From Rhodospirillales bacterium (GTDB lineage: Bacteria > Pseudomonadota > Alphaproteobacteria > Micavibrionales > UBA2020): a DNA stretch of 34,282 nucleotides. Below the pieces are notes generated by a model. The model had not been told where the DNA came from, ran no database searches, and was given only the letters and a program-made list of their open reading frames with translations. Made by a program: the position numbers and the translations under genes. The stretch spans positions 1 through 34,282 of the forward strand of contig PLXM01000083.1 of assembly GCA_003153235.1 (NCBI GenBank). The letters run 5' to 3'. Below, one piece after another: positions 1 to 14,783 of this stretch. How positions within the stretch are numbered: the first letter of the stretch is position 1; the number at the start of each line of letters is the position of its first letter.

Positions 1-629
1 AGCCGCACCAGAATTTCGCGGTTGGAAACGGCATTATAAAAACTATGCGACAATTCCGCATTTTTGCCGACGATGGATTTTAGTAGCTGCCGCAGCTCAT
101 GGGCATTCATCTCGTGCCCTTCCCTGAAGGGATCGAGGATAATGCGCTCGCTGTCTTTTTCCATCCGGATCAGAAAGTGCACGGGAAAGCTCAGCCCATC
201 ACAAGCCCACCCCATCTCGCGGGCAAGAACGATATAGAGGATGCCGAGCGATACCGGCAACCCTTTCCGCCGCTCAATGACGCGGATGAGATTGGCATTT
301 TGAATATCATCATAATTTTTCTCATCGCCCTGATAGCCATGCGCTTCATGGATGATCTTGCGCAGCACCTGCACGCGAAGCTGCAGGGTATCTTCCTCCT
401 GCAGACGCAGGCGTGAGCGGTATTCCTCCTGCACATGTTCGGCAAGCTTACGCAGATGCTGGCGATAACGGTCGATATGCAGGCCGGGCAGGAAAATCAG
501 CCCCAGCGCCAGCGCCGCTTCCGCGAGATCGATATCAGCATCATCGGCCTGACCAATATGCCGGAGATACTGTAGGGCCTCGTCGGAAGATTGAAAAAGA
601 TCGGGATTATCCTGATCCGCTTCATCCAT
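1..629 (-). CDS. SirB1-family transglutaminase-like protein (3' end cut by window)
   Basis: Reading down from the ATG at 629 gives an open frame of 209 codons to the window edge, so the C-terminus is missing. The core segment RRKGLPVSLGILYIVLARE, then GWACDGLSFPVHFLIR and ILDPFREG, matches the SirB1/COG2912 family (transglutaminase-like fold followed in full-length members by TPR-like repeats). The Cys of WACDG, His of PVHFLIR and Asp of ILDPF sit where the Cys-His-Asp triad of transglutaminase-like proteins lies; this assignment is from family knowledge. Most members begin with a helical region like residues 1-90 here. The biochemical role is not firmly known. The start overlaps the stop of the upstream BON lipoprotein by 8 bases, so the two are probably translationally coupled. 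Confidence 0.85.
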   Translation of the reverse strand, partial: MDEADQDNPDLFQSSDEALQYLRHIGQADDADIDLAEAALALGLIFLPGLHIDRYRQHLRKLAEHVQEEYRSRLRLQEEDTLQLRVQVLRKIIHEAHGYQGDEKNYDDIQNANLIRVIERRKGLPVSLGILYIVLAREMGWACDGLSFPVHFLIRMEKDSERIILDPFREGHEMNAHELRQLLKSIVGKNAELSHSFYNAVSNREILVR

Positions 630-1239
630 TGTTAGGCGCCATTCCTGCGACATTGTTCGGGTCTTCATAGCGCAGCCGGACGTAGCTGACCACATTGTGA
701 ACGTGATCCTCATTGCGCGCATATTCCACCACGCGGGTCAGCTCTTTCTGGTCCTGCGCCACGCCCATCAGGTAGACATTGCCGTTCACCGTATCGATGT
801 TGTAATTGATTGACTGCACATACTTGTCGAACATCAGCTTGGTTTTGATATTACTGGTGATCCAGCCGTCAATGACCGCCCCGGATATGCCGCCGCCGTC
901 ATCGACGGAAATTTCATTGAGCACCTGCCGCACACCATCGGCCTGCCACGCCAGCCGGATAGCCTCAACCCGCATGTCTGGATTGGGGACGGAGCCTGTA
1001 ATCAGCACGCGCCCTTCTTTGACGGTTGTACTGAGCTTGCGGAACATATCAAAATTTTTCTTGAACCACAGATCGGCGATCTTGAGCTGGATGGCGTCAT
1101 CCGTCAGGGCGCCACGAACACCGCCCTCCTGCGACGAAGCCACACCGAGCGAGGCCCCTGCCCCCGCCACAAGACCGACAGGCGTACAACCGGACAACAA
1201 CGCCACAGCTGCAACAATCCCAAAAAATGGATATTTCAT
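622..1239 (-). CDS. dolP: BON-domain outer-membrane lipoprotein, DolP/YraP-like
   Basis: The predicted protein is 205 residues. A short lipoprotein signal ends in the lipobox LLSGC with Cys18 as the lipidated residue; Thr at +2 does not suggest inner-membrane retention. Two BON domains follow, roughly residues 45-115 and 120-190, including VLITGSVPNPDMRVEAIRLA and VNGNVYLMGVAQDQKELTRV, the usual strand-Gly-x-Val pattern. Dual-BON lipoproteins such as E. coli DolP bind anionic phospholipid at the division site and support outer-membrane integrity. I chose the ATG at 1239 because GGGGGAGAGAAG lies just upstream and the signal peptide starts there; a TTG at 1269 would spoil the signal. Neighbouring yraN, rsmI and an lpoA-like gene echo the E. 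coli yraL-yraM-yraN-yraP cluster, which supports the call. Confidence 0.85.
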   Translation of the reverse strand: MKYPFFGIVAAVALLSGCTPVGLVAGAGASLGVASSQEGGVRGALTDDAIQLKIADLWFKKNFDMFRKLSTTVKEGRVLITGSVPNPDMRVEAIRLAWQADGVRQVLNEISVDDGGGISGAVIDGWITSNIKTKLMFDKYVQSINYNIDTVNGNVYLMGVAQDQKELTRVVEYARNEDHVHNVVSYVRLRYEDPNNVAGMAPNNG

Positions 1240-1257
1240 CTTCTCTCCCCCTTTTAA

Positions 1258-1273
1258 GGTCTTCCCCAAGACC
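1258..1273 (-). promoter_or_regulatory. Hairpin in the dolP leader
   Basis: On the minus strand GGTCTT-GGGG-AAGACC forms a perfect 6-bp stem with a 4-base loop. It sits just before the purine-rich ribosome binding site of the BON lipoprotein. It could shape the mRNA leader or act as a weak attenuator. No U-tract follows, so a standard terminator is unlikely. The dyad is seen directly; the role is inferred. Confidence 0.35.
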
Positions 1274-1285
1274 GTATTATCTAAA

Positions 1286-1335
1286 ATATTGCGAATAAAG
1301 TTCGCTTTATATATTGCGAATAAAGTTCGCCTTAT
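1286..1335. repeat. Tandem 25-bp repeat with internal dyad
   Basis: Two copies of a 25-bp unit lie head to tail at 1286-1310 and 1311-1335 with a single mismatch (T versus C in the TTTAT/CTTAT end). Each copy contains the inverted repeat GCGAA-TAAAG-TTCGC. The second copy ends directly beside the yraN stop codon. The pair lies about 50-100 bases upstream of the dolP start on the minus strand. A GATAAT -10-like hexamer is found just downstream of it on that strand. Two spaced dyads are typical of a dimeric regulator's operator, and on the minus strand each carries CGAACTT, reminiscent of a sigma-E-type -35 (GGAACTT). Both regulatory readings are inference. Confidence 0.55.
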
Positions 1336-1680
1336 CTAGAAAGCATTCGGAATGTGCTGCGGCCACGCGCCGGGCGCCATGACCAAAGCATCAAACCTCA
1401 ACTCAAACTCAGTATACTCCGGATGCTTCTGCAGGTAAAGTTCCGCAGCACGTCTGACACGCGACTTGTTTTTCTCATGAATGGCTTCCGCGGCAGCCTC
1501 CATCGTCTTGCGCATCTTCACCTCGACGAACACAATTAGATTTCCATTTTTTACAATTAAATCAATCTCTCCAGATGGGGTTTTAAACCTTTGCTCGAGA
1601 ATTTTGTAACCCTTGCAGCGCAGATAAGATTTCGCTTTAAATTCAGCCAACAATCCCTTCTGATATCCGGTTACAGCCAT
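1336..1680 (-). CDS. yraN: YraN family protein (UPF0102)
   Basis: This is a 114-residue protein of the usual YraN length. The diagnostic nuclease-like signature is present: an N-terminal GLLAEFKAKSYLRCKGYKIL helix-strand region, then PSGEIDLIVKNGNLIVFVEV followed by KMR. This matches the restriction-endonuclease-like fold with E-x(n)-D-x(n)-E-x-K metal ligands. The family's cellular role is not settled. It starts at the ATG at 1680, 13 bases after the stop of the DUF1566-like gene, with no clear ribosome binding site, so it may be read from the same transcript. In many proteobacteria yraN directly adjoins rsmI; here two accessory genes separate them. Confidence 0.93.
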   Translation of the reverse strand: MAVTGYQKGLLAEFKAKSYLRCKGYKILEQRFKTPSGEIDLIVKNGNLIVFVEVKMRKTMEAAAEAIHEKNKSRVRRAAELYLQKHPEYTEFELRFDALVMAPGAWPQHIPNAF

Positions 1681-1693
1681 GATTTTTGATGAT

Positions 1694-2524
1694 TTAAGGG
1701 GTTACGGGCACGCTCCGGACAAACCGGACGGACAGCTTTTCGTGGACAAAATGCTGGTGTTTTTTTCCATCGCTGAAACGCTGATCAGTTCCATAAGCGC
1801 CGTTATGAACAAAGGAAGAAGACGACCAATACCATCCGGCATAATTCGATCCTGTTTCATCAAATCCACCAATCTTGTCCTTATTTTCAAACATTGCATT
1901 CAGGATATCCGGCGCTCCATTGATGTCATCATCTCCGGGAGGCAGCATCCAGTCCCTATGACCATGAGCTTTTGATTTCCGAGCATATTTGTATACTGCA
2001 TCATTAAAGCTCAATGCAAGCCGCTTGCCTCTCTTGAAAAACCCCTTTCTTGCATCTTTGGCGGCGGCAAACCAGTCTCTTTCTGTTCCATCGGCACTTT
2101 TGAAACGACCTATGTATATCGTGCCATCCTTCATTTTCTGGCCGGTCTCAAGAACCGGCTTGGCCTCTTCCGCAGGCGCAGCCGCCACTTCGGAAATCAT
2201 CTCGCTATATTCTGATAGCGGTTTATTAGATACCTTAGCACCTGGAGCGATAATGAAAAGCTGTCCATCATCCGCCTGACTCACGGTCACGCCGTTTACA
2301 ACAACCGTATTCAGATCGTTGCTGATACTAACTTCTATATCTTCGGAGTCTGTTTCGGCGGGACTGGCGGCTTTTGTTTCAAAGCCATCTTTTGTATAGG
2401 CTGTAACTCTTTTGCCATCAGGGCTGATTTCAACCCTGTTCTCACCCAGTATTATAATGCTTCGATCTTCATTAACATCCAACTGAATGCCATTGGCTTC
2501 TGCCTTTTCTGCATCTTCAGTCAT
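1694..2524 (-). CDS. Lcl/DUF1566 C-terminal domain protein
   Basis: The predicted protein is 276 residues with no signal peptide or membrane segment. Residues 1-115 form a small beta-rich module (VEISPDGKRVTAYTKDG, then GVTVSQADDGQLFIIAPGAK) that recurs in the next gene. A short Ala/Glu/Pro linker leads to residues 125-276, which look like the Legionella Lcl/DUF1566 domain: GTIYIGRF, RDWMLPPGDDDINGA in place of the usual WRLPT, then GWYWSSSS, RFSDG and a terminal LSVRFVRSVP. That domain has a C-type-lectin or FGE-like fold, and several relatives are surface adhesins or virus tail proteins. Function here is unknown; the absence of a signal argues against classic Sec export. It lies 23 bases downstream of its paralogue and probably shares its promoter. 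Confidence 0.75.
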   Translation of the reverse strand: MTEDAEKAEANGIQLDVNEDRSIIILGENRVEISPDGKRVTAYTKDGFETKAASPAETDSEDIEVSISNDLNTVVVNGVTVSQADDGQLFIIAPGAKVSNKPLSEYSEMISEVAAAPAEEAKPVLETGQKMKDGTIYIGRFKSADGTERDWFAAAKDARKGFFKRGKRLALSFNDAVYKYARKSKAHGHRDWMLPPGDDDINGAPDILNAMFENKDKIGGFDETGSNYAGWYWSSSSFVHNGAYGTDQRFSDGKKHQHFVHEKLSVRFVRSVPVTP

Positions 2525-11871: not shown

Positions 11872-11975
11872 AACCTATATATTTGATTAAATTAACCCAG
11901 CCTTTGACACAGACGAAGTGAACGTGCATCCTGAGCCCCATGATCAGCACATATGCACTCAGACAGGCGGCCCCT

Positions 11976-14783
11976 ATGGACGAGAATGACCGTAAAAATG
12001 AACTGTTTCTGATCGACGGCTCGGGATTTATCTTCCGTGCCTTCCATGCGCTGCCGCCCCTCACGCGCGCGGACGGGACGCCGGTCAACGCCGTGCTCGG
12101 CTTTACCAATATGCTCGTCAAGCTCATCACCGACATGCACGTGCCGAATATCGCTGTGATCTTCGATGCCAAGCGTAAAAACTTCCGCAATGACATCTAT
12201 CCCGAATACAAAGCCAACCGCACGGAGACACCGCCGGAGCTCATTCCGCAATTCCCGCTCATCCGTGAAGCGACGGAAGCTTTCTCCATCCCCGCGATCG
12301 AGATGGAAGGCTTTGAGGCCGACGACCTGATTGCGACTTACGCCAAGCTCGCGCTCGCCAAAGGCATTCACGTCACCATCGTTTCCTCCGATAAAGACCT
12401 GATGCAGCTGGTCCGCGACGGCGTGCGGATGTTCGACCCCATGAAATACAAATATATGGGTGCGGACGAAGTGATGGAAAAATTCGGCGTCACGCCAGAG
12501 AAAGTCGTCGATGTGCAGGCGCTCGCGGGCGACAGCACAGATAACGTGCCCGGCGTGCCCGGCATCGGCGTCAAAACAGCCGCGCAACTGATCAACGAAT
12601 ACGGCGATCTCGAAACACTCCTCGCACGTGCGCCGGAGATCAAGCAGCAGAAGCGCCGCGAGTCACTGATTGAGCATGCCGAGCTGGCGCGTATTTCCAA
12701 GAAACTGGTACTGCTTGATGCCCATGTAAAAGTGCCGGTCGGGCTTGATGATCTTAAAATCAGGAAGCCGGATACGGCCAAGCTGTTTAACTTCCTACAG
12801 GTGCAGGGCTTCAAGAGCGTGCTGGCGCGGATGGAAAAGCAATTTGGCAGCGCGGCGAATGATGCCGCCCCTCTTTCCCGTCATTCCGGCGAAAGCCGGA
12901 ATCCAGATCCCGGCCTACGCCGGGATGTCGCAAAGGGCTACGAACTTATTCAGGACGAAAAAGCTCTGCAACGCTGGATCGACGACGCTATTGAGGCCGG
13001 TACTGTCGCCGTGGATACAGAAACAACCTCCCTCACCCCGGCGAAAGCAAAGCTGGTCGGCATCTCGATGTCGACGGCGGAGGGCAATGGCTGCTATATT
13101 CCGCTGCAGCACCGTAATCCGGAAGGATACAGCGAGAGCTTTGACTTCTCGATGAAAGAAAAGACGCCGGAGCCGGAGCTGATACAAATCCCCATCGAAA
13201 AGGTGCTGAAACTGCTGAAGCCGATGCTGGAAGACCCAAGCGTCCTCAAAATCGGGCATAACATCAAATATGATATGCAGCTGTTCTTCCCTTATGGCAT
13301 CAACATCGCGCCGATTGACGACACGATGCTGATTTCTTACGTGCTTGATGGCACGTCGCATGGCCACGGCATGGACGATCTCGCGCAGACATTCCTGAAC
13401 CACAACACCATCAAATATGAGGAAGTGACCGGTACAGGCAAATCGCAGGTGACCTTCGACCTCGTGCCGCTCGACAAGGCGCTGCAATACGCGGCGGAAG
13501 ATGCGGACATCACGCTGCGCCTGCACAAGCTTTTCAAGCCGCGCCTCGCACAGGAGCAGATGGTGACGGTCTATGAAACGCTGGAGCGCCCGCTTGCGGC
13601 CATCGTCGCCGAGATGGAATACACGGGCATCAAGATCGACGTGAAGGTCCTTAAAGGCCTCAGCAACGAATTCGCCAGGCAGATCGTCGCAAATGAAGAA
13701 GAAATTTTCAAGATCTCGGGACACACCTTCAACGTCGGCTCGCCGAAGCAGATGGGCGACGTGTTGTTCGGCTCGATGGGGCTGCCCGGGGGCAGAAAAA
13801 CAAAAACCGGTGCATGGTCGACGGGCGCCGATGTGCTGGATGAACTAGCGGGGCAGCACCCGATCATCGACAAAATCATTGAATGGCGCGAGCTTTCCAA
13901 GCTGAAAAGCACTTATGCCGATTCACTGCCGGAAGCGATCAACCCGAAAACGGGCCGCCTGCACACGTCATTCTCGATGGCGGGGACGAATACGGGCCGC
14001 CTCTCCTCCTCCGACCCCAACCTGCAGAATATTCCTATCCGCACAGACAACGGCAAAAAAATTCGCGCCGCGTTCATACCGGAGAAAGGCTTTGAGCTGC
14101 TGTCCGTCGACTATTCGCAGGTGGAACTGCGCCTCGCCGCCGAACTCGGCAACATCAAGGCGCTGAAACAGGCGTTCCTTGACGGCGTAGACATTCACGC
14201 GGCGACGGCCAGCCAGGTTTTCGGCGTACCGATGGCGCAGATGACACCCGACATCCGCCGTCAGGCCAAGGCGATCAACTTCGGCATCATCTACGGCATC
14301 AGCGGATTCGGCCTCGCCAAGCAGCTCGGCATCTCAAATGCGGAAGCGTCGGAATACATCAAGAAATACCTCGCCCGCTTCCACGAACTCAAGAAGTTCA
14401 TGGATGACGCAAAAGAATACGCCCGAAAACACGGTTACGTGAAAACTTTCTACGGTCGCAAATGCTTTGTGCGCGGCATCAACGACAAAGGCCCCTACCG
14501 CAGCTTCGCCGAGCGCCAAGCCATCAACGCGCCGCTGCAAGGCACCGCCGCCGACATCATGAAACGCGCCATGATCGCGCTGAAACCTGCCCTCGCCGAA
14601 GCGAAACTCGGCGCGCGCATGTTATTGCAGGTGCATGACGAGTTACTATTCGAAGTACCCACCGCCGAGAAAACTAAAACCGAAGCGCTCGTCAAACGCG
14701 TCATGGAATCCGCCGGCATGGGCATCGGTGTCCCCCTCGCCGTCGAAGCCGGCTGGGGCGATAACTGGGCGGATGCGCATTAA
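11976..14783 (+). CDS. polA: DNA polymerase I
   Basis: The 935-residue protein is a complete three-domain PolA. The 5' nuclease shows LFLIDGSGFIFRAFHALPP, EADDLIATYAK and GDSTDNVPGVPGIGVKTAAQ. The 3'-5' exonuclease keeps its DTE motif (Asp347, Glu349), IGHNIKYDMQ and YAAEDADITLRLHK, so proofreading should be intact. The polymerase has motif A SVDYSQVELRLAAELG (Asp712), motif B RRQAKAINFGIIYGISGFG and motif C QVHDELLFEVP (His887-Asp888). Residues 302-317, in the linker between the nuclease and exonuclease domains, are encoded by a palindromic repeat read in frame. I chose the ATG at 11976, with AGGCGG five bases upstream; an in-frame ATG at 11940 would add 12 residues. Confidence 0.97.
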   Translation: MDENDRKNELFLIDGSGFIFRAFHALPPLTRADGTPVNAVLGFTNMLVKLITDMHVPNIAVIFDAKRKNFRNDIYPEYKANRTETPPELIPQFPLIREATEAFSIPAIEMEGFEADDLIATYAKLALAKGIHVTIVSSDKDLMQLVRDGVRMFDPMKYKYMGADEVMEKFGVTPEKVVDVQALAGDSTDNVPGVPGIGVKTAAQLINEYGDLETLLARAPEIKQQKRRESLIEHAELARISKKLVLLDAHVKVPVGLDDLKIRKPDTAKLFNFLQVQGFKSVLARMEKQFGSAANDAAPLSRHSGESRNPDPGLRRDVAKGYELIQDEKALQRWIDDAIEAGTVAVDTETTSLTPAKAKLVGISMSTAEGNGCYIPLQHRNPEGYSESFDFSMKEKTPEPELIQIPIEKVLKLLKPMLEDPSVLKIGHNIKYDMQLFFPYGINIAPIDDTMLISYVLDGTSHGHGMDDLAQTFLNHNTIKYEEVTGTGKSQVTFDLVPLDKALQYAAEDADITLRLHKLFKPRLAQEQMVTVYETLERPLAAIVAEMEYTGIKIDVKVLKGLSNEFARQIVANEEEIFKISGHTFNVGSPKQMGDVLFGSMGLPGGRKTKTGAWSTGADVLDELAGQHPIIDKIIEWRELSKLKSTYADSLPEAINPKTGRLHTSFSMAGTNTGRLSSSDPNLQNIPIRTDNGKKIRAAFIPEKGFELLSVDYSQVELRLAAELGNIKALKQAFLDGVDIHAATASQVFGVPMAQMTPDIRRQAKAINFGIIYGISGFGLAKQLGISNAEASEYIKKYLARFHELKKFMDDAKEYARKHGYVKTFYGRKCFVRGINDKGPYRSFAERQAINAPLQGTAADIMKRAMIALKPALAEAKLGARMLLQVHDELLFEVPTAEKTKTEALVKRVMESAGMGIGVPLAVEAGWGDNWADAH
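12879..12926. repeat. Double-hairpin palindromic element inside polA
   Basis: Two perfect 8-bp hairpins stand side by side: ATTCCGGC-GAAA-GCCGGAAT (12883-12902) and ATCCCGGC-CTAC-GCCGGGAT (12907-12926), preceded by CGTC. This resembles the dispersed palindromes common between genes in several proteobacteria, whose translation is recognisable as RHSGESRNPDPGLRRD. Here 48 bases (16 codons) are read in frame within the polA linker. It therefore looks like a repeat insertion tolerated inside a protein gene. Confidence 0.85.

Follow-up and report, generated by a model that had tools for sequence, protein, structure and literature searches.

A 52-bp palindromic element lies in frame within the gene for DNA polymerase I (polA) of the alphaproteobacterial genome analyzed here. 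With a probability of roughly 0.85, we interpret it as a dimer of CGTC-1 type REP units, a small non-autonomous palindromic repeat, which entered the linker between two PolA domains. This interpretation is based on membership in a repeat family, the linker position, the kept reading frame, the predicted disorder of the surrounding peptide and the scattered distribution of such repeats among relatives. CGTC REPs within genes of bacteria other than Rickettsia, that of DNA polymerase I included, were already published in 2013 (PMC3733652), and the phenomenon as such is therefore not new. The useful addition is the recurrence of REPs in one polA linker across the order (presumably Micavibrionales). 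A literature search, which left aside the table of individual intragenic REPs in PMC3733652, found no earlier description of REPs arriving again and again in the polA linker within an order of bacteria.

The REP dimer in the polA linker

The window, i.e. the whole stretch of 34,282 nucleotides that was analyzed, corresponds to contig C72 of an assembly that totals 2.6 Mb in 257 contigs, is 79% complete and is labelled G000 in the following. It contains these features:

11940..14783, plus strand: polA, DNA polymerase I, 947 aa, intact according to the uninterrupted ORF and its Pfam domains
12849..12932, plus strand: predicted disordered linker, residues 304-331 (pLDDT <50 in the AlphaFold2 model), enclosing all REP-coded residues
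12879..12930, plus strand: inverted dimer of two CGTC-type REP units with tags outward (HH dimer sensu Di Nocera et al. 2013), assigned from the inverted arms and from the genome REP pattern on both strands
12879..12905, plus strand: REP unit 1 with CGTC tag, stem ATTCCGGC/GCCGGAAT, loop GAAA and tail CCA, an exact CGTC-1 fit as defined in PMC3733652
12904..12930, minus strand: REP unit 2, inverted, with tag CGAC, stem ATCCCGGC/GCCGGGAT, 4-base loop and tail CTG for CCA, with three mismatches to the pattern

The two hairpins (12883-12902 and 12907-12926) have perfect 8-bp stems with 4-nt loops and form the sole adjacent pair among all 8-bp hairpins of the window (loops of 3-5). An earlier sequence-only reading had described two consecutive hairpins at 12879-12926 (48 bp) coding in frame for 16 residues. 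Both hairpins are indeed real and perfect, but the element including its CGTC tags spans the 52 bp from 12879 to 12930, the last four bases of which had been missed; likewise, the frame is kept throughout the 947-aa ORF, but the residues encoded are 314-330 (RHSGESRNPDPGLRRDV). The arms of the dimer (12879-12903 and 12906-12930) are 25 nt long and 80% complementary, and the CGAC tag of unit 2 differs from CGTC by a single change. According to a distance census, the polA dimer is compressed, with 27 bases from start to start versus most commonly 43-47 in other dimers, and an inner spacer reduced by about 16-18 bp relative to theirs.

PolA consists of a 5' nuclease (residues 22-279), a 3'-5' exonuclease (334-536) and a polymerase domain (569-945), and the dimer is situated in the linker between the first two. 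As the alignment to chains of solved Klenow fragments starts at query residue 333-334, the insert lies where the small fragment with the 5' nuclease meets the large or Klenow fragment. The AlphaFold2 model, built on an alignment of 21 sequences, shows well-folded domains on either side of the segment with pLDDT <50 (304-331). Two claims of the sequence-only reading were thereby borne out: the flanking catalytic domains are intact, with all four polA domain matches far above the Pfam cut-offs, and the linker is a tolerant site, as is further indicated by related repeats in 10/110 polA linkers of the order.

The repeat is not confined to polA. That it might occur nowhere else in the genome, which the sequence-only reading had considered, is contradicted by 13 loose matches of the REP pattern at about 10 sites in G000, compared to none for the reversed control. 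As that reading had envisaged, further copies include an in-frame one: two sites of G000 are in frame, polA and the gene of the pyruvate dehydrogenase E2 subunit, while no convincing gene spans any of the remaining G000 sites inspected. The outward orientation of the tags is common to the polA dimer and the dimers on contigs C100 and C151. Among the relatives, the pattern is present in 37/55 genomes with 1 to 263 copies each. In G085, a single contig of 2,481,983 bases, it matches 193 times.

A comparison of linker lengths indicates that the dimer was not simply added to the protein. Between fixed anchors, G000 has 40 residues, G003 has 35 and the genus mates G004-G006 have 30-32, with linker length and sequence varying within the family. 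In G003, an 18-residue stretch corresponds to 24 residues in G000. None of the relatives offers a clean empty site for the polA dimer, the closest one with data (G003) being only 83-84% identical in PolA. The expectation that relatives would lack the 48 bases thus holds in so far as their homologous linkers are 5-10 residues shorter; what we observe is, however, no clean 48-bp addition, and some older linker sequence was probably lost or replaced. A homologous linker of the same length with unrelated DNA had also been named as evidence against an insertion. In length, the relatives come halfway to this picture, but the DNA in question plainly belongs to the repeat family. Across the order, polA linkers with a REP have on average 39.1 residues versus 34.5 without (p 0.006), a gain of about 5 residues although the dimer codes for about 17. 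E2 linkers comprise 26-29 residues with a REP (G007, G000) and 26-27 without (G002, G004-G006). The small gain in length and the compressed dimer thus suggest that linker or spacer DNA was lost during or after the insertion, which probably went along with the removal of older linker DNA. Moreover, since 52 is not divisible by 3, another length change must have accompanied the insertion.

Recurrence of REPs in polA linkers across the order

To cover the order, 110 polA linkers were scored against three CGTC-type REP consensus patterns and compared to 60 codon shuffles per linker. The resulting scores were bimodal: nine linkers reached 13-27, each above all 60 shuffles of its own sequence, and the remainder lay near a median of 3. 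With the linker of G119, which scored 11 against a shuffle maximum of 6, ten of the 110 linkers carry a REP (G000, G032, G053, G055, G068, G073, G085, G095, G119 and G131). These carriers belong to ten different genera, and their congeners, where sampled and checked, are without REP. The repeats fall into three sequence types at varied distances from the linker start. REP type and linker position are shared within three pairs (G032/G119, G053/G055 and G085/G095), each of which may go back to one event; we therefore infer, cautiously, about six or seven independent arrivals instead of ten.

Thirty polA genes scanned in full (84 kb) showed no REP beyond the linker, with isolated scores of 11 only, and neither did 52 kb of sequence flanking the 110 polA genes. 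A candidate relic in the nearest relative G003 (CTTCTTCCGCCGAAAG...) gave a suggestive alignment, but was rejected as its score of 7 is within the range of codon shuffles (8/60 as high). The polA linker of G112 (L201) contains a different palindromic repeat (CCTTCCCCCGTCAAGGGGGAAGG ... CCCTCCCCCCTTGCGGGGGAGGG), which is also translated in frame.

In-frame REPs in other genes

The second in-frame copy of G000 is found in the E2 gene (L004, contig C143; gene at 601-1878, minus strand), where a REP unit at 1337-1363, oriented against the gene, is translated as VIPAQAGIQ. In the protein, this peptide follows the E3-binding domain (126-161) and precedes the catalytic domain (196-418). The sister genome G007 has the same E2 REP and two further units in the first linker of the gene. 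Altogether, 4/62 scanned E2 genes carry in-frame REPs (G000, G007 in both linkers, G119 and G131); the E2 gene of G073 has another, doubtful repeat. Just after the E2 REP there is a small hairpin, GCCGCC-gaa-GGCGGC in G000 (L004) and GTCGCC-acc-GGCGAC in G007 (L259, near 1270-1285), in which both sides of one pair are changed between the genomes; this hairpin could have arisen by chance or constantly accompany the REP.

Further genes are affected as well. In G007, the carA gene carries an in-frame REP between the CPSase and GATase domains, and in G085 one lies between two aldehyde dehydrogenase (Aldedh) domains. G095 has in-frame REPs in LpxK, RecO and a squalene/phytoene synthase-like gene. 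The REP dimers of the former two (L245 and L257; VIPAKAGIS...DPRFREDD) interrupt the LpxK and RecO_C Pfam matches, and seem to have entered loops within folded domains rather than linkers between domains.

In a search for intragenic REPs, 800 kb of G085 were scanned for coding potential across REP sites. Here, 2/68 evaluated sites passed; as one of them matches a conserved NusA-like stretch by chance, one convincing intragenic REP is left among the 68 sites. With 2,434 genes predicted for the 2.48 Mb, this amounts to about one gene in 800. This rate applies to G085 only, and the same kind of scan overlooked LpxK and RecO in G095, both of which are confirmed by Pfam. By a rough estimate, in which a single genome supplies the average and E2, one of the two genes compared, was chosen as a known hit, the linkers of polA and E2 bear REPs far more often than the average gene and about equally often. 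A targeting specific to polA is weakened by the similar rate in E2 (4/62 versus 10/110) and by the further genes hit. Permissive interdomain linkers therefore fit better, and are the likely target instead of polA itself.

A by-eye, post hoc count indicated that intragenic REPs on the sense strand nearly always read as VIPAKAGI or an equivalent, though three frames are open. This tally comprised the polA linkers of G032, G053, G055, G073, G085, G095 and G119, E2 of G000, G007, G119 and G131, LpxK and RecO of G095 and CarA of G007. Two cases deviate: the polA copy in the window reads RHSGESRNP, and the G085 aldehyde dehydrogenase reads SPRKRGS.

Origin of the polA REP and comparison with known systems

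Three other explanations of the polA repeat were weighed against the insertion of a REP dimer. The most serious of them, though still improbable, is a single ancient insertion into the polA linker of the order's ancestor, which was kept or decayed and occasionally refreshed by other copies, comparable to RPE-4, RPE-6 and RPE-7 of Rickettsia, for which a common origin is favoured in PMC3767692. It would account for the three pairs of carriers that agree in REP type and position. In the tree based on the polA flanks, the ten carriers correspond to ten changes, which favors separate insertions, but strongly supported branches force only 3; this tree has 130 columns and few resolved forks. However, the three REP types sit at different linker positions, and the carriers are scattered among congeners without REP. 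In the 99 REP-negative linkers, neither the tag motif GTCAT/ATGAC (15 versus 12.6 in codon shuffles, p 0.28) nor hairpins (3 versus 1.9, p 0.29) are in excess, which argues against one ancient insertion decayed everywhere. By far the least credible option is a chance palindrome or an assembly error without any true insertion. The metagenome assembly is fragmented, and repeats cause misjoins, but shuffles of the window give a chance expectation of 0.00 for the 26-base core even with up to three mismatches, the reading frame and the flanks on either side show continuity and conservation, and the single-contig genome G085 likewise has a REP in its polA linker.

The repeat could also be kept for a function, either as an mRNA hairpin slowing the ribosome between domains or as a linker altering the cooperation of 5' nuclease and polymerase. 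The window copy has two perfect stems, and the segment with the polA REP folds more strongly than its shuffles (RNA z -3.6, DNA z -3.3); any REP folds well, though, so that folding is uninformative on selection. Repair genes are over-represented among REP-bearing genes (PMC3733652), and polA and recO are hit here, but so are the non-repair genes for E2, CarA, LpxK, Aldedh and the squalene/phytoene synthase-like protein, with E2 close to polA in frequency, and congeners manage without a REP. We regard such a function as quite unlikely. The same low probability is given to the broader idea that the polA linker is a repeated and selected landing site in Micavibrionales, where gain and loss of REPs would tune nuclease-polymerase coupling or the mutation rate.

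For the favored reading, insertion of a REP dimer into a permissive linker, the following course is the most likely. A trans-acting enzyme would have copied the dimer from another site of the genome, and copies that break the frame or fall into folded parts would have been removed by selection. In-frame copies in disordered linkers may persist for a time and be trimmed, as the linker of polA presumably was after the insertion, before they decay. The outcome would be an extra disordered peptide, which is probably near-neutral, and the same process may have been repeated in other flexible linkers of the order. A RAYT transposase was rejected as mobilizer: no Y1/RAYT transposase was detected in the 79%-complete G000, and of the 14 Y1 matches spread over 13 relatives, a single one has REPs at a distance of up to 1.5 kb, namely in the genome richest in REPs.

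The closest known system are the CGTC-1 REPs of Di Nocera, De Gregorio and Rocco 2013 (PMC3733652), which are known from Alphaproteobacteria, with M. aeruginosavorus named as a host. They are described with a CGTC (or TGTC/CCTC) tag, an 8-bp stem beginning with AT, a 4-base loop and mostly a CCA tail, form dimers mainly with tags outward, and have no dedicated transposase. All of this is shared by the polA element, with its terminal tags (CGTC at 12879-12882, CGAC in unit 2), perfect AT-start stems, 4-base loops, outward tags and membership in a multicopy family. The CCA tail is present at 12903-12905 in unit 1, while unit 2 has CTG, in line with CCA being usual but not absolute. A flanking transposase is missing as well (no Y1_Tnp in the incomplete G000, and one of the relatives' 14 Y1 matches near a REP). 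Differences are the compression of the dimer (27 versus about 43-47 bases) and CGAC/CTG in place of CGTC/CCA in unit 2. The same study found REPs to be mostly intergenic but some in frame in genes, including replication and repair genes such as that of DNA polymerase I, proposed flexible linkers as tolerant places and suggested that REPs in repair genes might yield mutators. Repair-gene REPs of different species were reported at different sites, except for recB of two Xanthomonas. Recurrence in one linker over ten genera, as found here for polA, was not reported there.

The in-frame palindromes of Rickettsia offer a second comparison. RPE-4, RPE-6 and RPE-7 carry the motif ATGAC, are 84-192 bp long and occupy exposed parts of proteins, with a location that does not vary among the species compared (PMC3767692); RPE-4 and RPE-6 of R. 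conorii have been equated with CGTC repeats (PMC3733652). RPEs in general have a length of about 105-146 bp, and RPE-1 goes back to Ogata et al. 2000 (as given in PMC2229807). Shared with our case is the in-frame position of palindromes in conserved genes, here polA and E2, and ATGAC is the complement of the GTCAT end of the polA REP. In contrast, the Rickettsia elements are larger (84-192 or about 105-146 bp versus 52 bp), reside in Rickettsiales and have fixed sites, whereas the polA REPs of Micavibrionales come and go between congeners. A Rickettsia-like process with an in-frame palindrome tolerated in a linker, as the sequence-only reading had suggested, is supported by the copies in E2 and in 10/110 polA linkers. 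More distant are the GTAG REPs of Pseudomonas and enterobacteria, which are associated with RAYT transposases and form REPINs (PMC3116915 and PMC2817692). REPINs share the unit of two inverted REPs, but the polA tag is CGTC, not GTAG, and no RAYT was found in G000 (79% complete).

Free-living and predator-related, the alphaproteobacterial order studied here joins the small number of groups whose repeats are known to contribute to proteins. One linker of one gene, with and without three types of REP among close species, provides a natural series. It can be used to ask whether the inserts are harmless filler or alter a DNA repair enzyme, a question open since 2013; in Rickettsia, guanylate kinase with an RPE insert is active with altered substrate affinity (PMC2229807). 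For annotation, peptides such as VIPAKAGIQ...DSRLRGND or RHSGESRNP in real proteins should be read as translated repeats, not as domains. The genome of M. aeruginosavorus ARL-13 was called almost repeat-free and without mobile elements, using a repeat cut-off of 50 bp (PMC3189940); the REPs are shorter than this cut-off.
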